DNA of 27,615 bases from a virus. The stretch covers positions 1 through 27,615 of the IMG/VR virus record IMGVR_UViG_3300042388_000159; one strand, given 5' to 3'. Shown in pieces: positions 2,103-12,586 of this stretch. Under the pieces are notes generated by a model. The model saw nothing but the letters and a program-made list of their open reading frames with translations. It searched no databases and was not told the DNA's origin. The position numbers and the translations under genes were made by a program. The stretch's first letter is position 1, and every line of letters begins with the position of its first letter.

Positions 2103-2669
2103 CTATTCCGCCCACCAGTGTCGCACGCGAGGGTGCTCTTCCTCAGGGGGAAGATCGTTCCAGAACGTCCTAACTGTGACCCTCAGGCCAGACTTAACGG
2201 AGGAGGTCTTGTGTAGGTACGGGATAGTTGACGGAAAGAACACGGTGCTGGGTGCTGTGGGTCGGTATTCAATACTGAGCCTAGGAAAGAAGAGAGACCC
2301 CCCTTCGTAGGACCCCGGATTGAGATACGAGACGGACGACGCAATGCGGTAGCGATCCCACTTCTGGTCGTAATGTTCCAAGATGACGCTTCCAGAGGAC
2401 CCGCGCACAAGGAGCAACTCCTCGCGTTGTGTAAGGCGGCATCCAGCGAAGTCTCCGTAGTCCCGCGACAGTGTGGTTAGGTACTCGTCGTAGGCGTCCA
2501 GAACGTCTGCCCTTTCTGGTGGTGCTGCGGACAGATTGACGGCTTGGCTCGCGATTCCCTTGGGCTCTGCTGCGAGGTGCGCCATACCCAACAGGTCCTC
2601 AACGAGACTCGTAGGAATCTCATACTCGGCAACTCCGGGGAAGATCTGGTGTCGCCCAGACGCACTCAA
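2103..2669 (-). CDS. 2-oxoglutarate/Fe(II)-dependent dioxygenase, prolyl-4-hydroxylase-like
   Basis: Fe(II)/2-oxoglutarate oxygenases hydroxylate substrates using O2. The double-stranded beta-helix core is readable here: the iron ligand pair H-x-D in LEHYDQKWD (about H99 and D101 from the chosen start), a central SVSYLNPGSYEGGSLFFPR segment typical of P4H-like domains, a distal histidine in FFPSTIPYLHKTSSV (about H153), and the 2-oxoglutarate-binding arginine about ten residues later in GLRVTVRTFW (about R163). All key residues are present, so the enzyme is probably active. Start: TTG 2669 overlaps the preceding stop as TTGA and has AGAAGGTG upstream. ATG 2717 in the same frame would overlap the neighbour by 52 bases and is less likely. 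It is the last gene of a six-gene cassette. The substrate is unknown: a tail or fibre protein is my guess, not shown by the sequence. Confidence 0.85.
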   Translation of the reverse strand: MSASGRHQIFPGVAEYEIPTSLVEDLLGMAHLAAEPKGIASQAVNLSAAPPERADVLDAYDEYLTTLSRDYGDFAGCRLTQREELLLVRGSSGSVILEHYDQKWDRYRIASSVSYLNPGSYEGGSLFFPRLSIEYRPTAPSTVFFPSTIPYLHKTSSVKSGLRVTVRTFWNDLPPEEEHPRVRHWWAE

Positions 2670-3397
2670 CGGAACACCTTCTGTTGGCGGTGCTGGTGCT
2701 GGTACCCCTGCTCCCACTCTGTTTTAAACACCTGGTCTCGGATCAGCAACTCTTCCTGATCCTCAACAAACACCTCGGACGTCCAAGACTGTCGTAAGAA
2801 CGGAACGACACGCGCGATGGGGGTTCCAGAGGCAATAGTCCCATCGAAGGTCTCCCGCAACAGAAACGCTATGTTGGTTGGGGACCGCCAGGAGTCGGAA
2901 TCGACAATGGCGCTGAAAGTACGGAACATGTCCACACCAAAGCCTTCTGGGTGCGTGATCAGCACGCTAACCCCCCTTGGGGTGTGGATAGTCCAGGGGT
3001 TAATCCACTTGTACGCACAGTTCGTGTCGAAGCCGGGCGGCACTGGGTACCTACCCAACTGCTCCCTGTCGAAAGTCCCAACCGCGCTGAGTACCCGCCG
3101 GGGCGCGGATGTAACAAATACGCGACCGCCAGACGCTCTACGAAAGTTCACGTCTACAGGCAGCCTCAGGATGTAGCCAGACATCAACGAATCTCGCGTA
3201 GGGGAGCAGCGCTTCACAGTTGGGGCAGATCCTCGGCCCTCTGTTCCATAGACAGCGGTTTCCCTCAGCCAGTTGGGTGCCATGGTGGCGGCGGCTGCGG
3301 GATGTGGTGCGTTATCGAAGTACCACTGATCGATAGCCCCAAAGCGCACCAGACCTACCGGTTTGTCCTCAGGGGAGGGGGACGTAGTGCTGCTCAT
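2666..3397 (-). CDS. DUF6065-like protein, copy 4
   Basis: A 243-residue protein that aligns by eye with the genes at 4028-4753 and 4750-5493. Shared landmarks in order: a PNWLRE motif (about 41), TVKRCSPTRDSLMSGY (about 60), a basic-aromatic NPWTIHTPRGVSVLITHP segment (about 133-150), AIVDSDSW (about 163), and GTIASGTPIARVVPF (about 186-200). The order and spacing resemble the uncharacterised DUF6065 family as I remember it, often seen in phages. I could not search to confirm. The chosen ATG 3397 has GGA eight bases upstream and overlaps the previous gene by 29 bases. An ATG at 3433 is possible. The C-terminus (HRQQKVFR) resembles the SRKEYR and SKKYR endings of its two close relatives. Biochemical function is unknown. 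Confidence 0.75.
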   Translation of the reverse strand: MSSTTSPSPEDKPVGLVRFGAIDQWYFDNAPHPAAAATMAPNWLRETAVYGTEGRGSAPTVKRCSPTRDSLMSGYILRLPVDVNFRRASGGRVFVTSAPRRVLSAVGTFDREQLGRYPVPPGFDTNCAYKWINPWTIHTPRGVSVLITHPEGFGVDMFRTFSAIVDSDSWRSPTNIAFLLRETFDGTIASGTPIARVVPFLRQSWTSEVFVEDQEELLIRDQVFKTEWEQGYQHQHRQQKVFR

Positions 3398-4052
3398 TCT
3401 GTTTGTCCAAGGCTCTGAGCGGCGACACGTCATATGCGACCGTTATGCGGGGGCCTCCCCACGACCAGTCGCCCATGGCGTGCGGCCACTTGCTCTCTCC
3501 GAGGATTGCTCGGTTGTTTCTGTTTTCCACTACGACGATATCTCCGTCAATGTTGTAGTGAGTCTGGGAAGGCTCGGCGGTCACCGCGTAGTACCCGTGA
3601 AACTGCGGCGCCCCCAGTGGTGAGTGTATGTGCCAGTCCAACTTTCCGGAATGTGCGTAATTGACGTTGAACCAACCCTGGACCATGAACCGCTGAGATC
3701 GGAAGTTCAACTCGTAGTAGTCGCACGCCTCACGCGTCATCTCTCCGATAGCCAACAGCAGGTCATATACGTTTGATTCATGGAACTGGAACACGTTGTA
3801 GTCTCGCCAGGCAACCGTGGAAAGGGACCCTGAGTCTTCCCACAGGCGCTTTCCGGATTCGGCTCCCGGGGTTGGACGCCCAAGAGCGACTTCACTGTCC
3901 TGGGCCTCAAGGAGTCGGTACTTGGCGAGTAGAAAATCACTGAGGAACTGCGTATTAAGATCCAGGTCTCTAGTGAAGTGCTTGAACGGTTTGCTTGTCC
4001 GCGTGGGCAGCAGGGACCGTCGTCCGGTCAGCGGTACTTTTTGCTGTTCCAC
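3369..4052 (-). CDS. Putative 2OG-Fe(II) oxygenase, 2OG-FeII_Oxy_5-like
   Basis: A 227-residue protein. The N-terminal 100 residues are helical. The second half contains GWFNVNYAHSGKLDWHIHSP with an H-x-H pair (H141, H143), then FHGYYAVTAEPSQTHY, and finally a distal histidine (H191 in KWPHAMGDW) and an arginine (R202 in GGPRITVAYDV) placed as the third iron ligand and 2-oxoglutarate-binding residue of phage 2OG-FeII_Oxy_5-type proteins. This differs clearly from the P4H-like enzyme at 2103-2669, which uses H-x-D. Start: GTG 4052 has a perfect AAGGAG five bases upstream, lying inside the 3' end of the previous gene, so the genes overlap by 25 bases. The H-x-H in place of H-x-D/E makes activity less certain than for its neighbour. 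Confidence 0.7.
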   Translation of the reverse strand: MEQQKVPLTGRRSLLPTRTSKPFKHFTRDLDLNTQFLSDFLLAKYRLLEAQDSEVALGRPTPGAESGKRLWEDSGSLSTVAWRDYNVFQFHESNVYDLLLAIGEMTREACDYYELNFRSQRFMVQGWFNVNYAHSGKLDWHIHSPLGAPQFHGYYAVTAEPSQTHYNIDGDIVVVENRNNRAILGESKWPHAMGDWSWGGPRITVAYDVSPLRALDKQNEQHYVPLP

Positions 4053-4753
4053 ACGTTCTCCTTGTAGTAGCCGTAGATCTTGGTCCTCTTCTTCTCTAGG
4101 AGCATGGCCCCGCTCTCAGCCAACGCATGGTTGGTTTCCAACTTCCAGTCTTCCCGTTTAAACGGGAGCACTGTGAACATAGGGGTACCTGAGGGGATTG
4201 TCCCCTCAAAGTCCTTGCGCAGAAAGAATGTGATGGCGTTGGGAGCCCACCATTGGTCAGTGTCTTGGACTCCGCTGTAGGTGATGAACGGAAGGTCATA
4301 CCGGTTGAGTGGGTGCGTTATCAGACTCGAATACCCCGGAGGTGTTTTGAAGGCCCAGCGCATGTCCCAGATGTAGTGGGTGGGCCAGCAGCCAGCAGGT
4401 ACTGGAACCTCGATGTAGCCCCGGGTTTCAATGGGGCGGACGATGGGGTCCTGCCAAGAGATGTGCGGTCCGTCGTCGTCCACGGCAACATCAATGTCTA
4501 TAGGAGTGACGTAGTGATAACCGGTCGTCAGGGCGTCTAGAAACGGGGCGCAGTGCTTGAAACTCAGGTTGGCGGAGTCACGACCGTTCCTATTGCTGAC
4601 CCCTAAGTCTCGCCTGTCATTCGATGTATGGAACAGGTACGCGTCTCGGTACCAGGCAGGTACCGACTCATAGGCCGGGCGCGGGGGTAGCGTGATGTCG
4701 CGGTACTGGTTGTTTGCGTACGTCTCGATGTGTAGAACTTCGTCCCCGCTCAT
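4028..4753 (-). CDS. DUF6065-like protein, copy 3
   Basis: A 241-residue protein starting at ATG 4753, overlapping the preceding stop as ATGA. Landmarks shared with its neighbours: VPAWYRDA (31-38), SFKHCAPFLDALTTGY (64-79), FKTPPGYSSLITHPLNR (135-151), GVQDTDQWWAPNAITFFL (161-178) and GTIPSGTPMFTVLPFKRE (184-201). It is soluble with no signal or membrane segment. The C-terminal ending NVWNSKKYR closely parallels NFWSRKEYR in the gene just upstream, which supports duplication from a common ancestor. The similarity to DUF6065 is from memory of the family's motif order. No catalytic residues can be assigned. The 3' end of this gene carries the ribosome binding site of the following oxygenase, so the two are probably translated together. 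Confidence 0.77.
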   Translation of the reverse strand: MSGDEVLHIETYANNQYRDITLPPRPAYESVPAWYRDAYLFHTSNDRRDLGVSNRNGRDSANLSFKHCAPFLDALTTGYHYVTPIDIDVAVDDDGPHISWQDPIVRPIETRGYIEVPVPAGCWPTHYIWDMRWAFKTPPGYSSLITHPLNRYDLPFITYSGVQDTDQWWAPNAITFFLRKDFEGTIPSGTPMFTVLPFKREDWKLETNHALAESGAMLLEKKRTKIYGYYKENVWNSKKYR

Positions 4754-5493
4754 CGGTACTCCTTTCTCGACCAGAAGTTGCTCCGGTATCCGCCTGTGAA
4801 TACCGACCTAATCCGAGAAGCCTGTCCGTCAATTAGGTCTGCGTCGTACTCTCCATGAATCGCGCTGCTCCAGGCCTCCCGAGCAAAGGGGACCACGACC
4901 GCTAACGGCGTGCCTTGCTTGATGACTCCTTGGACGCCGCGTCGCATGAGCAACGAGTACGCCCCATCCGGGGCGTACTGATCGGTGTCCATGACCGCGG
5001 GGAGGACCTGCCAAGGGACATCGATTGAGTACGGAGGGTGCGTGATCATGACGCTGTAGCCGGGTGGGGTCAGGTATCCCCACAGCGGGTGAATGCGGAA
5101 GAGGTCCTCGCAGTATTGTGCCCGGTCAAACGGCAACTCCGATACTTGCTGCCTGTCGTGAAGGCTGACGACCTTCCAAGACACGTTGCCCTTGGGCAAC
5201 TGCCATCGAATCCGGTCTCCGGTGGTGTCAATCGAGATATCGACGGGTACCTTAAGTAGGTATCCGGTACTCAGTGCGTCGAGAACCGACGGGCACTTCT
5301 TGATGGTTTGATTGCCTTTACCGCCCTCGATCTTCATCGAGCCGCCCGCGTAGACGTCCTGTTCTCGCCACCATGCGGGGATGTTCTTGGACAGAGGCTC
5401 CGGCTTTGGGGCATACGTAGGGACACCGGGGGCCACCGGGAAGAACTGAATGATTTTGGACGGCTTACTCGAAGTAAACCTAGTACTCAGCAT
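4750..5493 (-). CDS. DUF6065-like protein, copy 2
   Basis: A 247-residue protein, ATG start at 5493, overlapping the previous gene by 14 bases. Landmarks: NIPAWWREQD (38-47), TIKKCPSVLDALSTGYLL (63-80), GYLTPPGYSVMITHP (139-153), AVMDTDQYAPDG (166-177) and GVIKQGTPLAVVVPFARE (189-206). It is the most complete reference copy of the family in this window. The pairing of a 'TPPGYSVxITHP' strand with a 'DTDQ....LL.R....G.I..GTPxAxVxPF' block reminded me of the C-terminal motifs of the dUTPase-like fold, which is treated as a separate hypothesis. No enzyme residues are assignable. The gene lies within the six-gene oxygenase cassette and ends with an ATGA overlap to the next copy. Confidence 0.77.
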   Translation of the reverse strand: MLSTRFTSSKPSKIIQFFPVAPGVPTYAPKPEPLSKNIPAWWREQDVYAGGSMKIEGGKGNQTIKKCPSVLDALSTGYLLKVPVDISIDTTGDRIRWQLPKGNVSWKVVSLHDRQQVSELPFDRAQYCEDLFRIHPLWGYLTPPGYSVMITHPPYSIDVPWQVLPAVMDTDQYAPDGAYSLLMRRGVQGVIKQGTPLAVVVPFAREAWSSAIHGEYDADLIDGQASRIRSVFTGGYRSNFWSRKEYR

Positions 5494-6232
5494 GGTCTGC
5501 GTTCTCGATTCTCGTTGGGGTTACGCGTAGTAGAGCGATTGGTGTGCCTCGCTTTATGACAACTGGATCATCTTCAGCACCCCGCTTCAGGAGGAACGGG
5601 AGGCCGAGAGGACCTGAAGGTGAGTGCGGCCAGGTGAGACGTGCATCTAACGTCCTGAAAGGGAGAGAGTTGTCGTCAACTGGGCTACGCACAACGACAT
5701 CGCAATCGACAGTGGGGCTCCAGTAGATGAGCCACCGGTAGTGTGCGTCGAAATACCGATCGACTGGGAAGTCTCTCCTGTATCTGACTCCAGTAACGCG
5801 TCCTGCGGGCTGGAGCACTGTTCGTGATACAAGGTCCGCGGACTCCGTCCATTCGGTTCCTACGTCGCTGGGAATTCTTCGTGGTCGGATGAAGACATCG
5901 GCAAACAGCCGGACTTCGTACTCACCCCCGGCACTAGGCTCTGGCGCCCAACTGATTTCAGATACGACTCGGTTGTGCGGCCAAAACTCGTCTCCCCGAG
6001 CAAGGGCCTGACGTTGTAGGTCTTCATGAATCTTTCGCTGCCAAGCCTGTTCCTGGCTGAGGTGAGGGCTGACTGGAAGTTCCCCGCGGACGGCGGTTGG
6101 TTGTTGAAACTCGTTGTCGTTGGCCGACATTCTCTTGGACGGACGACCCAGCATGCGCTCACTTGTCTGCGGGAAAATCGAGCGACGCCGAGTTTCCCCT
6201 CCAGGGTCGATTCGTTGGTGATCTGCAGTCAT
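5480..6232 (-). CDS. Divergent DUF6065-like protein, copy 1
   Basis: About 250 residues from ATG 6232. The longer in-frame start at 6280 would overlap the Hint-domain gene by 31 bases, so I rejected it. The N-terminal 85 residues are polar, basic and probably disordered or helical (QEQAWQRKIHEDLQRQALAR). The rest keeps the overall layout of the three following genes in weakened form: a charged beta segment (YEVRLFADVFIRPRR), then WLIYWSPTVDCDVVVRSP in place of the TPPGYS strand, and LPFLLKRGAEDDPVVIKRGT followed by PIALL in place of the C-terminal GTPxAxVxPF block. The CP and DTD landmarks are missing. I treat it as a diverged relative, but this needs a structure comparison. It begins the cassette, 17 bases after the PASTA-Hint gene. 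Confidence 0.6.
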   Translation of the reverse strand: MTADHQRIDPGGETRRRSIFPQTSERMLGRPSKRMSANDNEFQQPTAVRGELPVSPHLSQEQAWQRKIHEDLQRQALARGDEFWPHNRVVSEISWAPEPSAGGEYEVRLFADVFIRPRRIPSDVGTEWTESADLVSRTVLQPAGRVTGVRYRRDFPVDRYFDAHYRWLIYWSPTVDCDVVVRSPVDDNSLPFRTLDARLTWPHSPSGPLGLPFLLKRGAEDDPVVIKRGTPIALLRVTPTRIENADHAEY

Positions 6233-6249
6233 GGCGAACGACTCGTTAC

Positions 6250-7083
6250 CTATGCGTCTTCGGGACCTATGCCGTTCCACGTCAGCATGTGTTCGGTGAA
6301 AAAGAGGTCGTACGGTTCACAGCGAAGTGAGATCACCTCGGTACCTGACGTGAGCGGGACCGACTCGTAAGTGAGGATGGGTTCCCAGTCATTCACGGAA
6401 CCGTCGTAGACGAGATCGGAAGGCTCCAACGAGTCAGCGCGAGTCAGGGTGTAGACATCATTCCTTCTTACAAGAATGTAGTGACTCGGAGAGAACAGAT
6501 CGCCATTGACGATATAGAGTTCGTCGACCGTAGACCTTGCGATGCTGGTGACTTCAGTCTCAACAAGTCCTAGGGACGTGAACGAATCGGACTCCCAGGC
6601 GAGGGATCCGGACATCGCGGCTAGAAGCGCAGCGTCAGCGTCCGTGCCGAGTTCTTCGATGTTGAGTGAATAGAGACGGTCGCCTACCTGGACGTCCTCG
6701 GCTCGGACGAGCCCCTCGGGCGTACGGACCATGGTGTCGGGGGCTACTGAGTAGTCGTGGTTGAACGAAAAGCCGAAGCCACCGTAGAAGCCGAAGCCAC
6801 CGTAGAAGCCGAAGCCACCGTAGAAGCCGAAGCCAGGGTACACATAGTTCCAACGGCTGATCCCGACGGCCGACCCTCGCAGAACCACCGCTCCAGACGC
6901 GACTCCTTGGCTGATGACCTGCGTATCTATGCCGCTGTTGCTGGTGTTTGAGGTGGTCTCGCTACCCAGACTCAGACCGACGTTGGTCAGGGCCGTGATC
7001 GCGTTCGCACGGGTCTGTCCGACAATGTTGGGGACCGTGGTTTTGCGCGGTCCGCCGCGGTCAAGGTTGCGTGATGTCGACAA
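6250..7083 (-). CDS. PASTA domain plus Hint (intein/Hedgehog-type) domain protein
   Basis: A 277-residue protein with an unusual architecture. Residues 15-77 form a PASTA domain (VPNIVGQTRANAITALTNVG, later VISQGVASGAVVLRGSAV), a fold known for peptidoglycan or muropeptide binding. Residues 82-107 are a glycine-aromatic linker of repeated FGFYGG. Residues about 112-271 look like a Hint domain: block A as SVAPDTMVRTPEGLVRAEDV then QVGDRLYSL, block B as an S-x-x-H motif (S198-H201 in FSPSHYILV), and a C-terminal strand EPYDLFFTEHMLTWNG. The usual first-position Cys is Ser112, and the terminal His-Asn pair is replaced by Trp-Asn followed by Gly. Start: TTG 7083 with AGGAGAAG immediately upstream. 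It follows the giant tail fibre, so a virion appendage that contacts the cell wall is plausible. Self-cleavage is possible but unproven. Confidence 0.8.
   Translation of the reverse strand: MSTSRNLDRGGPRKTTVPNIVGQTRANAITALTNVGLSLGSETTSNTSNSGIDTQVISQGVASGAVVLRGSAVGISRWNYVYPGFGFYGGFGFYGGFGFYGGFGFSFNHDYSVAPDTMVRTPEGLVRAEDVQVGDRLYSLNIEELGTDADAALLAAMSGSLAWESDSFTSLGLVETEVTSIARSTVDELYIVNGDLFSPSHYILVRRNDVYTLTRADSLEPSDLVYDGSVNDWEPILTYESVPLTSGTEVISLRCEPYDLFFTEHMLTWNGIGPEDA
6771..6836 (-). repeat. 18-bp tandem repeats encoding FGFYGG
   Basis: Three perfect direct copies of an 18-bp unit (plus strand ACCGTAGAAGCCGAAGCC) occupy 6781-6834, with a partial copy on the left. In the minus-strand gene they encode FGFYGG repeats between the PASTA and Hint domains. 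The unit keeps the reading frame, so copy number could change by slippage without breaking the protein. Confidence 0.95.
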
Positions 7084-7111
7084 CTTCTTCTCCTACTGGT
7101 TGCGAGATCTA

Positions 7112-10100
7112 TTACGACAGGTCACCGGTCAGGACCCACACGTTGGCGGCCCGCTTCGTGAGCGTAGCCCCGGACCACTGCGCGCGAAGGTTCAAACCTG
7201 GCGTCGCATTGATGGTCACACCGCCAGCGGCGGCAATGTTGACGCCACCGGCACCCACCCGCAGGAGGTGGATCTGAGTACCCACCTTGAAGTTGACGGT
7301 AGCGTCTGCTGCAACCGTGAACGTAAGCGCGGAACCGCTGTTCATCTCAATCATTCGTCCGGCGTCGCTCAGAACAAACTGATACGAAGCCGTCTTCTGG
7401 TCAATCACCACGGGGGCGTCCAGAACGTTACCGGCCGCCAGCGTGATGCCACCACCGGTCACTGACAAGCCGCCCGAAGAGATCGTGACAGTGGTGAGCG
7501 TCGGGGAGGTGCCGAACACCAGGGCCCCGCTGCCCGTCTCGTCCGAGATCACTCCGGCCAGTTGGGCGGATGTGGTGGCCGCGAACTGATTGAGCCCGCT
7601 GGTGGTCAGGCCGAGGCCGGTCGTGGCGTGAACGTGGTCCGCTCGGGCGTACCGGAGCGACGTGCCCACGGCAGCGGTGCCGAGTGCCGCGGGGGTTGCC
7701 GCCGAGGCCTGGCCCACAACAAACGCCGTGGTTGCCAACTGGGTGGTGTTGGTGTCTGCAGCGGCGGTTGGTGCTGCAGGAATACCCGTCAGGGTGGGCG
7801 ATGCGATCGGTGCCTTCGCTGCAAGATCCGAAACCAGGCCCGTGATCGCGCTCTGCGCAAGTGCGATGTTCGTGCTGGAGACGCTCGTCACACGACCCTT
7901 GGCGTCAACTGTGATGGCCGGTACCGCAGTAGCGGAGCCGTACACTCCAGCAGTCACTCCAGAATTGGCAAGTGTCAGAGTGATACCAGTCGTTCCCGAA
8001 CCGGTGGCGTCACCAGAGACAGAGATACTCTGGTTGGCCGTCAGGTACGTATTTGTGTCTAGGGACCACGTATCGGCGGCCGTCTTCCGTAGGATGCCGC
8101 TGGTACCTGCGAGGGCCGCGATGGCCGTGAGGTCGGCATCCAGAGGCTGCTTACCGGCCAGCGAATTCGTGAGTGTGGTCGCAAACGACGCATCATCGTT
8201 GATCGCGTCCGCGAGTTCGCTGAGGGTATTCAGGGCCGCGGGAGCGGCACCGATGAGGTCGCTGACGGCCCCAGTGACGAATGCTGTGGTGGCCACCTGA
8301 GTGGTGTTGGTGCCCGCGGTAGCAGTGGGCGCGGTCGGAGTACCAGTCAACTCCGGAGACGCAAGCGACGCCTTACCCGCAAGAGCCGATGCCAGGCCAG
8401 TGACCTGCGACTGCGTGATCGCGATATCTACCGACGACGCTGCCGTCACGCGACCCTTGCTGTCCACGGTGACCTGAGCCACCGAGTCGGCATCACCGTA
8501 GGTTCCCGAGTTTACGCCGCTGTTGGCTAGGGTGGCCGTGATGCTGGTGGCACCGGATCCGGTGATATCACCGCTCAGGGTCACTGTCTGGTTCCCGGTG
8601 AGGTACGTAGACGTGTCCAGCGACCATGTGTTGGCGGCCGTCTTCTTTAGCAGACCGCTGTTCGCCGAGATCTCGGCGATCGCGGTCAGGTCGCCATCGA
8701 GAGGCTGCTTTCCGCTGAGTGCCGTCTGCACCGTGGTGTGGAAGGACGGGTCATCGTTGATGGCCGCGGCCAGTTCGTCAAGGGTGTCAAGGCCAGACGG
8801 CGCTGAACCCCTGAGGCTGCTGATACTGGCATCGGTGTACGTGTTGGCAGCGCTTTCGGCGGCGTCGGCTTTGGAAGTTGCATCGGCAGCGGCGGTGGCT
8901 ACTGCAGCACTTTCGGCAGCGTCCGCGTAGCCCTGAAGTGCGTTCGTGGCTGTAGCGATCTCTGCGTCAGTGTACCCGTTTGCAGCACTCTCGGCGGCGT
9001 CTGCCTTGGACTGAGCCCCGGCCGTGGTTTCAAGGAGCGACGTGTTCGCAATGCCGTGCACGTTGGTGGTGCTGGCGTTGTGGTTGCTCAAGGCCGTTCC
9101 AGCGCCATTCGCGGCGTTGGTAATCTGAGTGTTAAGGTTGGACATAGTGCTGTCGACGGCGCTGTTGATGGTGTTGTTTAGTACGACAACTTCCGCATCC
9201 GTGTAGTTGTTTGCTGCGGTTACTGCGTCGGTCTCCGCCTGATCCGCGTAGTCTTCAAGGTCACTTACTGCAGCCGCGAGATCACTTGCAGCCGTGCTGG
9301 CGACCGACGAAATCTGGCCCGCCACGGAAGTGGAGAACTCCGGGTCGTCATTGATCGCGGCTGCCAACTCGTTGAGGGTGTTCAGGAGTGACGGCGCGGC
9401 GTCGACGAGGCCAGAAACTGCCGCGTCCGCGTACGCCTTGGCGTCCACCTCAGCCTGATCGGCGTAGGCTTCAAGGGCAGCCGTCGCGGTAACAATCTCC
9501 GCATCGGTGTAGGCGTTCGCAGTGTTCACGGCGTCGATCTCAACCTGGTCGGCGTAAGCCTCAGCGGCCTCTCGCTGCCCGAACGCATAGGTCTGAGCAG
9601 CACTCAGTGCGTCTGCCTCAGCCTGATCGGCGTACGCCTCAAGAGCCGTCGTGGCTGCAGAGACTTCGGCGTCCGTGTAGGCGTTCGCTGCCGTGACGGC
9701 AGCACCTTCGGCAGCGTCCGTGTACGCCTCTAGAGCGTCCACTGCGTTAGCGAGCGTGCTATCCGTGTACGTCTGCGCGGCTGATGTGGCCGCTGACTGC
9801 GCTGCGTTCGCCTTGGTTGTGGCGTCAGTGGAGGCCGCAGATATGGCGGCCGCCTGCGCTGCGTTCGCCTTCGATGTCGCATCGGACGCTGCGGTCGATA
9901 CGGCTGCGGCCTGTGCTGCGTTTGCCTTCGACGTAGCGTCTGCTGCGGCAGTAGAGATGGCAGCCGCTTGGGCAGCATTGGCCTTGGATGTGGCATCGGT
10001 CGCAGAGGTGGCTACAGCGGCGGCCTGGGCAGCGTCCGCCTTGGAGGTGGCGTCTGCTGCAGCGGTTGATACGGCCGCGGCCTGGGCTGCATTGGCCTTG

Positions 10101-10789
10101 GATGTGGCATCTGCAGCGGCAGTAGCGACTGCGTCTGCCTCGGCCTGGTCTGCGTAATCTTCAAGATTGGCCACTGCGGTGGCGATATTCGTGGCGACGG
10201 TAGCCGCAAAGTTTTCGTCGTCGTTGATCGCAGCCGCAAGTTCGTTGAGAGTGTTAAGGGCTCCCGGTGCTGCCTGGATCAGGTCAGCGACCTGGGTGTC
10301 GGTGTACGCGTTTGCGGCAGCCTGAGCGGCGTTTGCTTTCGATGTCGCGTCGGCTGACGCGGTAGATACAGCCGCAGCCTGGGCAGAGTTAGCCTTAGAC
10401 TGCGCTCCGGACTGAGTCTCCAGAAGAGCGGTGTTTGCAATGCCGTGGACATTCGTGGTTGCTGAAGTATGCGTGTTGAAGTTGCTGCTCAGCGTGACGA
10501 CGGATGAGAAAAACGCTGGGTCATCATTGATTGCGTCTGCCAGTTCCCCAAGGCTGTTAAGGACCGACGGGGCGTCCCCGAGAATCCCAGCCACTGCTGC
10601 GTTCACAGCGGAGGTCACGTCCTCTGGCCGAGCGTTTGCGTACAGGAGCGTCGTCCATGCCGTGAGACCGTCACCCACCTTAAACTTGCGAGTATCGAGT
10701 TCGATGCCGATCTCGCCCTGAGCCAGGATGGGATTCGCTGCGGTCCATGCAGCCGCGAGTCCTCGACGAATCTGAATCTGAACAGCCAT
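7112..10789 (-). CDS. Long tail fibre with Mtd-like N-terminus and multiple internal repeats
   Basis: A 1225-residue protein, the largest gene here. Residues 1-50 (IQIRRGLAAAWTAANPILAQ, then EIGIELDTRKFKVGDG) match the short N-terminal module shared by many phage appendages and related to the N-terminus of the major tropism determinant, which probably attaches the fibre. Then follow five copies of an 'AP..LN.L.ELA.AINDD..F' module (about 71-97, 172-199, 462-489, 661-688, 845-873), an alanine-rich 19-residue repeat region (about 227-340), further YTDAEVxxATxALExYADQAE helices, and two tandem 150-residue modules starting GKQPLD at about 693 and 879. The C-terminal 180 residues are beta-rich, with a DHVHATTGLGL motif near 1051, and probably form the tip. 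This composition is typical of trimeric fibrous proteins. It should act in host binding. Start ATG 10789 has AGGAG ten bases upstream. Confidence 0.92.
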   Translation of the reverse strand: MAVQIQIRRGLAAAWTAANPILAQGEIGIELDTRKFKVGDGLTAWTTLLYANARPEDVTSAVNAAVAGILGDAPSVLNSLGELADAINDDPAFFSSVVTLSSNFNTHTSATTNVHGIANTALLETQSGAQSKANSAQAAAVSTASADATSKANAAQAAANAYTDTQVADLIQAAPGALNTLNELAAAINDDENFAATVATNIATAVANLEDYADQAEADAVATAAADATSKANAAQAAAVSTAAADATSKADAAQAAAVATSATDATSKANAAQAAAISTAAADATSKANAAQAAAVSTAASDATSKANAAQAAAISAASTDATTKANAAQSAATSAAQTYTDSTLANAVDALEAYTDAAEGAAVTAANAYTDAEVSAATTALEAYADQAEADALSAAQTYAFGQREAAEAYADQVEIDAVNTANAYTDAEIVTATAALEAYADQAEVDAKAYADAAVSGLVDAAPSLLNTLNELAAAINDDPEFSTSVAGQISSVASTAASDLAAAVSDLEDYADQAETDAVTAANNYTDAEVVVLNNTINSAVDSTMSNLNTQITNAANGAGTALSNHNASTTNVHGIANTSLLETTAGAQSKADAAESAANGYTDAEIATATNALQGYADAAESAAVATAAADATSKADAAESAANTYTDASISSLRGSAPSGLDTLDELAAAINDDPSFHTTVQTALSGKQPLDGDLTAIAEISANSGLLKKTAANTWSLDTSTYLTGNQTVTLSGDITGSGATSITATLANSGVNSGTYGDADSVAQVTVDSKGRVTAASSVDIAITQSQVTGLASALAGKASLASPELTGTPTAPTATAGTNTTQVATTAFVTGAVSDLIGAAPAALNTLSELADAINDDASFATTLTNSLAGKQPLDADLTAIAALAGTSGILRKTAADTWSLDTNTYLTANQSISVSGDATGSGTTGITLTLANSGVTAGVYGSATAVPAITVDAKGRVTSVSSTNIALAQSAITGLVSDLAAKAPIASPTLTGIPAAPTAAADTNTTQLATTAFVVGQASAATPAALGTAAVGTSLRYARADHVHATTGLGLTTSGLNQFAATTSAQLAGVISDETGSGALVFGTSPTLTTVTISSGGLSVTGGGITLAAGNVLDAPVVIDQKTASYQFVLSDAGRMIEMNSGSALTFTVAADATVNFKVGTQIHLLRVGAGGVNIAAAGGVTINATPGLNLRAQWSGATLTKRAANVWVLTGDLS
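7706..8713 (-). repeat. Two tandem modules of about 150 residues in the tail fibre
   Basis: The fibre segments at residues about 693-842 and 879-1028 are near-parallel copies 186 residues (558 bp) apart. Both run from GKQPLD and DLTAIA through a T-WSLDT-TYLT strand, SGD-TGSG, TLANSGV, VD-KGRVT, and end in a P-APTA-TNTTQ-ATTAFV segment. The copies are diverged rather than identical at the DNA level, so this is an old duplication retained in the protein. Confidence 0.85.
9770..10111 (-). repeat. 57-bp periodic repeats (19-residue DATSKANAAQAAA units)
   Basis: Six consecutive units begin DATSK (or DATTK) at fibre residues 227, 246, 265, 284, 303 and 322, an exact 19-residue or 57-bp spacing. 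The typical unit is DATSKANAAQAAAVSTAAA. A further isolated unit starts at residue 147 and another near 636. Codons vary between units, so the protein sequence rather than the DNA appears conserved. Confidence 0.93.
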
Positions 10790-10794
10790 GGTGG

Positions 10795-11247
10795 TTACAC
10801 TCCTCCGGCATCGACGACGACGGTGTGCTCTGACGTGGTGTCGCCGCCGCTCATTGTCTTGGCAAACGTAAACTGCTGGTTGGACGAACCTCCGTCGACG
10901 TTCGGGAAGTTGGTCGTTGTGGATCCGCCGTCAAAGGAAACGGCGCTGACGCTGTACGGCGAGTCACCCGAGTACGAGACGGTCTGTTCTTGGATGTATA
11001 GGAATCCGTTGCGGAAGGCGATCTCCCCACCATCTAGCGATTCGGTTAGGCGCAGAAGGTCACTGTCGTTGAAGTCGTCGGAGGTATTTGTGCCTCCGCC
11101 GCCACCGGACACGGTGTTCCAGGTGGCACCGTCGAATACCCGGAGGGAGTGCGTAGAGATGTCATAGTAGAGGTCGCCAGCGTGCTCGCCGATGGGCTCG
11201 GAGCCCACCGCGAGTACGTTGAGAGGTACGTACGATCTCTTGGACAA
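10795..11247 (-). CDS. Small virion appendage protein with fibre-type N-terminal module
   Basis: A 150-residue protein starting at TTG 11247, preceded by GGAAGTCATAG. The first 45 residues (MSKRSYVPLNVLAVG, later GDLYYDISTHSLRVFDGATW) parallel the N-terminus of the 440-residue fibre upstream, including the G-x-x-YY......[VF][YF]DGATW motif. A glycine-rich hinge follows (SGGGGGTNTSDD), then a beta-rich domain with AFRNGFLYIQEQTVSYSGDS and a C-terminal TSEHTVVVDAGGV. It sits between two fibre genes and shares an attachment-like module, so it is probably a short appendage or an accessory that caps or bridges fibres. The C-terminal domain is not recognised. Confidence 0.7.
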   Translation of the reverse strand: MSKRSYVPLNVLAVGSEPIGEHAGDLYYDISTHSLRVFDGATWNTVSGGGGGTNTSDDFNDSDLLRLTESLDGGEIAFRNGFLYIQEQTVSYSGDSPYSVSAVSFDGGSTTTNFPNVDGGSSNQQFTFAKTMSGGDTTSEHTVVVDAGGV

Positions 11248-11263
11248 CTATGACTTCCCAGTT

Positions 11264-12586
11264 CTAGCCAACGACCACGGCGCGGAAGGTGCCCGATGCG
11301 TGGAACGTGAGGGTTACGGTGTTGGCGTCGGTGCGGACGATGTCGCACTCAACCTCAGCGAACGTGGAGGCGTCGTAGACCTGGACGGTCACGTCTCGGT
11401 TGCCCAGGCTGTGCGTCAGGGTCTGGGTGACAGGTCCTGTCGTAACCGTGGCTGTGAAGTCCGAGAAGATCTTCTTGTAGGCCACGACAGTGGTGTCGAC
11501 TGCCACCGCATCGGCGCTGACCGTGAGGCCGGTGCCGACGACGAGGTCGAGGCGGTTCCCGTCCTTGGTGAGTCCGTCCCCAGCGGTGATCTGACCGGCG
11601 CCCGAGAACTGGACGAAGTCGAGTTCGGTGGTGTCGAGGGTCACAGCGCCGTCGCTGACCAGGACCCATCCGGAGTCGGCGTTGACGGTGCCTTCCTCGA
11701 CGAACGTGAACATTCCGGGTCCGACGTTGGCACTGCTGTTAGCGTCAGCGGAACGTGACCACGCACCCGCGGCTACGACGTAGATACCGTTATCCGCGGG
11801 ATCGAACTGATCCTTGACGAGGACGCGGTTTCCAGCCGAAAGGATGACGCCGTCGATCGTCTGGGCACCGCTCAAGGTGATGGGGTCACCAGTGGTGGCA
11901 GCCCGAACGGACAACTTGACGTCGAGGCCCTGGCTGACGGAGTCAACGTAGCCCTTGGTGGCGGCGTCGGTGTCCGCCTGTGGCTCCGCGAGGTTGGTGA
12001 TTCGGTTGTCGTTGGCATCGATGTCGGTGTTGGCGGCTGTGGTAAAGGACTGCAGGGTCTTGTCGTCAACGTAGGACTTAGTGCTGGCGTCCTGCGGGTT
12101 AGTCGGCTCGCCAAGGGAGATGATTTTGAACCCGGAGATGTCCAGGTCGCCGTTGGCCGCCGAGAGGTCGCCGAGTGAGATGCCCGAGTGCTCGTCCGGA
12201 CCATGTGCGTGCTTGTGGTCCGATCGGGCGTAATTGGTCGAGGTGCCGTCGACGTTGGTCCCGGTGTTATCGAGGGCAACCGGAGTACCGAAGTTGCTGA
12301 CCTGGTCCCAGGACGACCCGTTGTCGTAGTACAGGACCTTGGTATCAGTAGCAAAAAAGAAGCGACCAATCGAACCCGCAGCGGGCCGCGCGGCGATCGC
12401 CGAGGCCACGATCTTTCCTACGGGCTGCCAGGTGGCGCCGTCGTAGACAAAGAGGGTGTCCGACTGCGTGTTGTAGTAGACATGGCCCTCGCCCCTAGGC
12501 GTCGGAGCCGAAGCAAGATTCTGGAACTTGACGTTCTGGATCTCAAGGCCATTGAGATCGATGGGCGTGTAGTACTTACGGGCCAT
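11264..12586 (-). CDS. Tail fibre/appendage protein
   Basis: A 440-residue fibre protein. Residues 1-55 contain the short N-terminal module ending VYDGATWQPVG. A second copy-like segment (RFFFATDTKVLYYDNGSSW) follows. Residues about 145-215 have repeated fibre motifs: GFKIISLGEPTNPQDASTKS then YVDD, and RITNLAEPQADTDAATKGYV, the 'N-I-T-N-L-x-P...DAATKxYVD' signature of many phage fibres. Next is a beta domain common in phage fibres (VILSAGNRVLVKDQ, DNGIYVVAAGAWSRSADA, DSGWVLVSDGAVTLDTTELD). The C-terminal 65 residues (LTHSLGNRDVTVQVYD to VTLTFHASGTFRAVVVG) resemble the end of the 92-residue protein at 12599. ATG 12586 follows AGGAG. It probably forms part of the receptor-binding apparatus. 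Confidence 0.85.
   Translation of the reverse strand: MARKYYTPIDLNGLEIQNVKFQNLASAPTPRGEGHVYYNTQSDTLFVYDGATWQPVGKIVASAIAARPAAGSIGRFFFATDTKVLYYDNGSSWDQVSNFGTPVALDNTGTNVDGTSTNYARSDHKHAHGPDEHSGISLGDLSAANGDLDISGFKIISLGEPTNPQDASTKSYVDDKTLQSFTTAANTDIDANDNRITNLAEPQADTDAATKGYVDSVSQGLDVKLSVRAATTGDPITLSGAQTIDGVILSAGNRVLVKDQFDPADNGIYVVAAGAWSRSADANSSANVGPGMFTFVEEGTVNADSGWVLVSDGAVTLDTTELDFVQFSGAGQITAGDGLTKDGNRLDLVVGTGLTVSADAVAVDTTVVAYKKIFSDFTATVTTGPVTQTLTHSLGNRDVTVQVYDASTFAEVECDIVRTDANTVTLTFHASGTFRAVVVG

Follow-up and report, generated by a model that had tools for sequence, protein, structure and literature searches.

Phage cassettes of dUTPase-fold proteins and 2-oxoglutarate oxygenases associated with an aromatic-repeat, Hint-terminated tail protein

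Here we describe a block of six genes in a 27,615-base virus contig from IMG/VR (IMGVR_UViG_3300042388_000159, hereafter the window), in which four proteins resembling the family DUF6065, with a fold of the dUTPase type, are interleaved with two different 2-oxoglutarate/Fe(II) (2OG) oxygenases. Across many phage contigs these two kinds of protein are associated with a third, in which a repeat rich in aromatic residues is followed by a C-terminal Hint domain. In the window the gene for such a protein (6250..7083, minus strand, 277 amino acids from a TTG start) sits directly upstream of the block, outside the range first reported (2103-6232). We consider it probable, though well short of secure, that the six genes form a cassette for the maturation of this tail-tip protein, hydroxylating its aromatic/proline repeats. 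In the mechanism that we infer, a PASTA domain (elsewhere an fn3 domain) would anchor the protein in the tail-tip or receptor-binding block, and the 2OG oxygenases would act on the repeat as their substrate and hydroxylate its residues. An enzyme with an H-x-H motif would take aromatic-rich, proline-poor repeats, while an enzyme of the prolyl 4-hydroxylase (P4H) type would take prolines or other repeat residues. An active Hint domain would then cleave or transfer autocatalytically, freeing or capping the repeat. The dUTPase-fold proteins would probably form trimers, their active site being altered, and serve as repeat-specific partners in recognition, assembly or a second activity; more generally, low-complexity tail adhesins would need them as partners whether oxygenases are present or not.

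The block runs from 6280 down to 2103 as six gapless open reading frames (ORFs), all on the minus strand, and its place and order are those given in the original prediction. It begins with copy 1 of the DUF6065-like proteins (5480..6280, 266 amino acids from a GTG start, a start at 6232 also being possible), copy 2 (4750..5493, 247 amino acids) and copy 3 (4028..4753, 241 amino acids), which are followed by the H-x-H oxygenase (3369..4052, 227 amino acids), copy 4 (2666..3433, 255 amino acids) and the P4H-like oxygenase (2103..2717, 204 amino acids). Successive junctions overlap by 14, 4, 25, 65 and 52 nt when the longest ORFs are taken, although true starts may be shorter, and the repeat-Hint gene shares 31 nt with copy 1 if the GTG start of the latter is used. 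The cassette was found at 99-100% identity in six further IMG/VR contigs, one of them of 76 kb, and is therefore no accident of assembly.

The association with the aromatic-repeat protein is clearest in loci that were chosen by homology to the H-x-H oxygenase only, and not by repeats or DUF6065-like genes. An aromatic-repeat ORF lies beside or near the H-x-H gene in 62 of these 64 loci, compared with none of 62 control tail loci; it is present in all 46 of the H-x-H loci without a DUF6065-like gene and in 16 of the 18 with one. The comparison of 46/46 with 0/62 gives a Fisher value of 1e-31, for loci that are not independent. The repeat gene ends 16-78 bp ahead of the oxygenase in 36 of the 41 H-x-H loci without a DUF6065-like gene that were measured. 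The association was also recovered from the opposite direction: a seed made of the Hint domain only, in a last scan made after the idea was fixed, gave 59 distinct loci, 55 of them with aromatic repeats, and where at least 2 kb of downstream sequence was available, 55 of 58 loci had DUF6065-like genes (47), 2OG genes (35) or both downstream, the DUF6065-like gene usually following 12-50 bp behind the Hint gene. With an earlier Hint seed, both families were present in 17 of 29 loci; among the negatives, L442 and L443 break off at the locus edge with a second repeat-Hint gene, and others are short downstream. The order seen in the window, PASTA-repeat-Hint followed by two (or three) DUF6065-like genes and the H-x-H gene, was seen again in the independent contigs L323, L345 and L458. 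Two candidate targets had been named at the outset, an FGFYGG protein and an alanine-rich fibre: the first has gained strength, since proteins with PASTA or fn3 domains, aromatic repeats and, in some cases, Hint domains are the consistent partner, while nothing specific speaks for the second.

The PASTA domain of this protein (residues 16-73) scores 32.2 bits against a cut-off of 23.2 (E 1.1e-7). It is followed by the aromatic repeat GFGFYGGFGFYGGFGFYGGFGFSF, of the type (GFGFYG)n, at residues 84-107 (6763..6834, minus strand), which five other contigs of this phage share without change, and then by a Hint-like domain (6274..6750, minus strand) delimited by alignment with relatives. The expected Ser, His and Asn positions of the latter are filled, with Ser at the nucleophile position (YSVAPDT), a His block (SPSHYIL) and a C-terminal LTWN-G. 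Its match to Hint_2 is weak (E 0.049, 14.5 bits against a cut-off of 28.4); the relatives L114 and L363 weakly match Intein_splicing (L114 at E 9e-5, below the family cut-off), and L114 also matches PT-HINT/Hint_2. Like Hedgehog/intein (Hint) and bacterial intein-like domains, this appears to be an autoprocessing-type domain at the C-terminus, behind a structural domain. Here, however, the aromatic repeat of a phage tail protein precedes it, its scores lie below the Pfam cut-offs, and most members carry Ser where the nucleophile is expected. Counterparts at the heads of cassettes elsewhere include fn3-(TPFGF)n-Hint, PASTA-(GGFYHGFGHY)n-Hint, PASTA-(NPPPYYNPYD)n-Hint and fn3-(FGA)n-Hint, as well as fn3-(FGVFGFSP)n with or without Hint, fn3-(FFPPFFP)n and fn3-(HFPP)n. 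Since some repeats, such as the (YNFYNYSN)n that was among those missed by the first detector, have neither Gly nor Pro, the feature common to them is their aromatic residues. One locus, L442, encodes two different repeat-Hint proteins, both with (TPFGF)n (3847-6591 and 10674-12053), which suggests that a pair of tail proteins could share one cassette.

The six genes had been taken as one system rather than as chance neighbours, and the arrangement of the two families elsewhere agrees with this. The dUTPase-fold family was found in 177 non-redundant loci by pattern and protein scans of IMG/VR, and 2OG genes are also present in 65 of these. When the window's phage is left out, the 64 two-family loci contain 65 neighbour pairs of DUF6065-like and 2OG genes, against 26 +/- 3.6 under rotation of the DUF6065-like pattern, where the maximum in 1000 rotations was 36. 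With the P4H-like protein of the window as the sole seed, all eight non-self loci contained arrays of 2OG genes with DUF6065-like genes next to them or between them. Genes could instead have gathered by chance in a cargo hot spot between the tail fibres and the neck genes, the oxygenases being auxiliary metabolic genes. Such genes are familiar from cyanophages, where 2OG genes are common without a partner of this kind, and where a drawdown of 2-oxoglutarate that tunes host nitrogen regulation has been suggested (PMC3037559). This explanation would also fit the one phage group in which DUF6065-like genes occur without 2OG genes, and the variability of the cassettes, some of which also carry halogenase, glycosyltransferase or SGNH genes. 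We nevertheless regard it as improbable, given that the interleaving exceeds that under rotation, the reading frames overlap, three seeded searches recover the partners, and the type of repeat tracks the type of enzyme.

Both oxygenases of the window are predicted as such because of their fold or motif. The P4H-like protein passes PF13640 (2OG-FeII_Oxy_3) narrowly, with 27.4 bits against a cut-off of 27, and has the residues H115-x-D117...H169...R179. No Pfam family covers the H-x-H protein. In place of the canonical HxD/E...H triad it has a three-histidine variant, H141-x-H143...H191 with R202, and in an alignment of 74 family members H141, H143, H152, H191 and R202 are invariant. Its AlphaFold2 model (predicted local distance difference test, pLDDT, 89) belongs with the double-stranded beta-helix superfamily, its Foldseek matches being 3bvc, 2rg4, ThoJ, PHD1/2 and the P. 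putida P4H crystallised with EF-Tu, so that its nearest folds include peptide and protein hydroxylases. The model thus places the protein among the 2OG/Fe(II) oxygenases, in a family that Pfam does not contain. No member was found in 120 genomes of one phylum, a search that had no positive control and is uninformative. A second, shorter paralogue of the H-x-H protein (L031:4673-5236, L019:8829-9389, and in L039, L045, L065 and L103) has lost the H-x-H motif and is probably a pseudo-oxygenase. The families phrog_2297 and phrog_274 of PHROGs, which are named DNA endonuclease (V), match the 2OG-oxygenase-like proteins of window 2103-2717 and L012:7649-8206, and for these members the names look wrong.

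Relatives of known function offer a frame for both enzymes. ThoJ is a peptide-tailoring hydroxylase. Together with 2OG-FeII_Oxy_5 (PF13759; 3bvc, 2rg4), this protein of thioviridamide biosynthesis provides the nearest folds of the H-x-H enzyme, whose family differs in having no Pfam hit, its own invariant residues and a pairing with aromatic-repeat tail proteins. The P4H-like enzyme resembles collagen P4H and the bacterial P4H that acts on EF-Tu (4iw3) in being of the PF13640 type, with an HxD...H...R motif and, as proposed here, a protein or peptide substrate; proline-rich repeats co-occur here with arrays of the enzyme. It differs in lying among phage tail genes, with repeats such as (FFPPFFP)n or (GFGFYG)n in place of Gly-X-Y, and in being accompanied by dUTPase-fold partners and a C-terminal Hint domain. 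In collagen a dedicated, multi-enzyme hydroxylation of a repeat protein is known, while the repeat, the genome and the partners are different here.

The type of enzyme appears to follow the chemistry of the repeat. Among the Hint-selected loci, at least two P4H-type genes were present with 14 of 15 proline-rich repeats (at least 25% Pro) but with only 1 of 47 proline-poor ones, whereas an H-x-H gene was present with none of the 15 and with 21 of the 47; (FGA)n repeats were mostly accompanied by a DUF6065-like gene alone. Single-linkage clustering merged nearly all of the loci, and the Hint tree gives only a few independent changes (two pairs on supported branches and five in all), too few for a test. 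The pairing of proline-rich repeats with P4H-type arrays, and of proline-poor aromatic repeats with the H-x-H enzyme, is for this reason suggestive and not proven.

This shortage of independent changes weighs against the maturation cassette as we propose it, and so do several other points. Co-localisation does not show the substrate. The aromatic-repeat gene was seen in only 15 of the 64 DUF6065-like/2OG cassettes, within the stretch seen; the thresholds of the repeat detector were set after examples had been seen, and they differed slightly between analyses; the loci compared are related contigs; the Hint scores lie under the Pfam cut-offs; and DUF6065-like genes were found without oxygenases next to glycine-rich or (FGA)n proteins. 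In a control set seeded with an unrelated small tail gene, DUF6065-like genes were present in 18 of 80 loci and were not associated with 2OG genes, which occurred in 2 of the 18 DUF6065-positive and 3 of the 62 DUF6065-negative loci (p 0.31). A universal link between the two families was rejected on this matched control. The co-occurrence expected of related phages was found, but it is not obligate, many phages having a DUF6065-like gene and no oxygenase found nearby.

The DUF6065-like proteins themselves were said to be four members of one family, and this holds, with copy 1 as a divergent member. Copies 2, 3 and 4 match phrog_7084 (E 4.4e-36, 9.5e-29 and 4.6e-28, respectively) and one another (E 1e-30 and 1e-23), and are thus paralogues far beyond chance. 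Copy 1 gave no hit in a database search, phrog_7084 included, and in a single BLAST comparison it matched copy 2 weakly (E 1e-4). Over residues 120-250 it aligns to the profile of 115 family members (E 9e-7, hhalign probability 91) and is thus a divergent relative, in which the otherwise conserved K/C and D-x-D positions are lost in an alignment inspected by eye. None of the four passes PF19541 (DUF6065), whose cut-off is 26.6 bits; copy 3 scores 12.1 and the others nothing. The same family is reached by 60 of 117 relatives (best E 8.6e-9), so on alignment scores the name DUF6065-like appears right but distant for the copies in the window. For copy 3, an AlphaFold2 model built with 115 homologues (pLDDT 92, predicted template modelling score 0.87) shows a predicted fold of the dUTPase type: the top 50 Foldseek matches in the PDB are all dUTPases, dCTP deaminases or dUTPase complexes, the best being 3ecy (E 1.1e-4, template modelling score 0.71 on the target), and many annotated dUTPases in a viral structure library also match. 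The family profile found nothing meaningful among PDB sequences. With similarity among the copies and an association in related phages both found, neither observation that might have overturned the idea of one system did so. The suggestion that the DUF6065-like proteins are the substrate loses support, because they are well-folded proteins of the dUTPase type and the repeat protein is the better candidate.

The fold raises the question of nucleotide chemistry, in which the DUF6065-like proteins would be enzymes of the dUTPase or dCTP deaminase type and the oxygenases would hydroxylate bases or nucleotides, as a DNA-hypermodification or pool-sanitising module. The family keeps a D-x-D near motif 3 of that superfamily and GTPIAQ at the position of motif 4, and its I-x-x-P-x-G-Y, G-V-x-D-x-D and G-T-P-I-A-Q segments (PxGY...VDxDY...GTPIAQ) are motif-like and stand in register with the dUTPase motifs, a weak match (hhalign E 0.0027, probability 11). 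Two of the 117 relatives weakly match PF00692, the dUTPase family (E 0.021), which no copy in the window does, and a search of five phage records for PF00692 gave no match. Neither motif 2 (RSG) nor the glycine-rich motif 5 is conserved in the inspected family alignment, so that ordinary dUTPase activity is unlikely, and the family has an additional segment at the N-terminus in which W, K, C and D are conserved. An ordinary dUTPase is also encoded in six bacteria with DUF6065-like genes. Some weight stays with nucleotide chemistry because of where certain relatives lie: in the haloviral Hafunaviridae the gene adjoins a ribonucleotide reductase or thymidylate synthase gene, and a distant relative, D2 (phrog_17480; locus L409, gp27 of Roseobacter phage CRP-6), lies between MazG and a B12-dependent ribonucleotide reductase, a position that may point to nucleotide chemistry for its branch. 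The strongest partner of the family, however, is the repeat-Hint tail protein and not a nucleotide gene, and the H-x-H fold is closest to PF13759-like proteins and peptide hydroxylases; nucleotide chemistry is accordingly, in our view, an unlikely role for the window's cassette.

Cultured relatives are few, since copy 3 and a homologue from L012 find only haloarchaeal myoviruses among deposited phages, and a paper on the virion proteins of HF2, which names four major bands, settles nothing on the DUF6065-like protein. Among bacterial DUF6065 loci there is no neighbour common to all, except that in several the gene adjoins a repeat or low-complexity protein (L423:4562-5110, L226:5113-5496, L424:3352-4155), with (NSSS)n and, 24 bp upstream in L424, a tandem RMGSGELPPRVAKHVKATQV; these may be a cellular parallel of the phage repeat partner. 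A further family of about 240 amino acids, D3, lies between two DUF6065-like copies in a conserved cassette (L031/L045/L103; e.g. L031:3232-3963), and its profile similarity to the DUF6065-like family is very weak.

Proteins with a dUTPase fold are typically trimeric. The DUF6065-like proteins might serve low-complexity tail-tip adhesins as chaperones of assembly or as trimeric caps in the virion, and stand outside any modification chemistry, with the oxygenases as optional extras. (FGA)n-Hint genes have a DUF6065-like gene 12-50 bp downstream and no oxygenase found nearby, a glycine-rich adhesin is present in 55 of the 112 loci with DUF6065-like genes only, its gene usually ending a few hundred bp upstream, and the conserved polar residues are lost in copy 1. 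Glycine-rich ORFs are common in the control loci too, though (27 of 62), and the residues strictly conserved across phages in the family (K66, C68, D73, D164, D166, Q194, K199 and R200) resemble a functional site. We take this role to be rather unlikely, while giving it more room than any of the other alternatives is given here.

Cyanophage clusters in which several 2OG dioxygenases lie together, some of them with an amino-acid halogenase or carbamoyltransferases, have been interpreted by inference as decorating secondary metabolites or the capsule (PMC7824862) or as controlling nitrogen (PMC3037559), and a repeat-Hint partner is not reported for them. Flavin-dependent (tryptophan-type) halogenase genes also occur in or beside DUF6065-like/2OG cassettes (L093, L077, L087, L120, L193, L022 and L102); L093 has three halogenases, four 2OG genes and one DUF6065-like gene (2997-11007). 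Decoration of a metabolite or capsule could be read from the cassettes in which 2OG genes are joined by halogenases and glycosyltransferases (L093, L077), but the cassette in the window has no halogenase, carbamoyltransferase or glycosyltransferase and is constantly accompanied by the repeat-Hint tail protein, and such a function seems to us very improbable.

Upstream of the repeat-Hint gene stands an Mtd_N tail fibre of 1225 amino acids (7112..10789, minus strand; Mtd_N E 3.4e-12), which we mention as context and not as a proposed member of the cassette, followed by more tail or virion-type proteins, a major head protein, portal, terminase and endolysin; downstream of the block is a gene with weak similarity to a tail-sheath stabiliser. 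In L031, L442 and L443, too, the repeat-Hint gene comes after a fibre of this type.

Taken beyond the window, the maturation cassette may represent an undescribed and widespread system, which we put forward tentatively: a tail protein of fn3 or PASTA domain, aromatic repeat and Hint domain, matured by a cassette whose oxygenase type is matched to repeat chemistry (H-x-H for Phe/Tyr-rich repeats, P4H arrays for Pro-rich ones), with dUTPase-fold partners and a hydroxylated, perhaps adhesive, tail tip as the result. No description of such a system was found in the open-licence literature. Phage 2OG oxygenases are often interpreted as auxiliary metabolic genes (PMC3037559). The cassette offers a testable role for them and for the DUF6065-like proteins, which are here given a fold; both are common in uncultivated viruses. 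If the proposal is true, phages would hydroxylate their own receptor-binding apparatus post-translationally, with the type of oxygenase fitted to the chemistry of the repeat and an autoprocessing domain attached to that apparatus. The biology of host range and adhesion would thereby gain a new layer, and peptide hydroxylases paired with known repeat substrates might be obtained from such cassettes.

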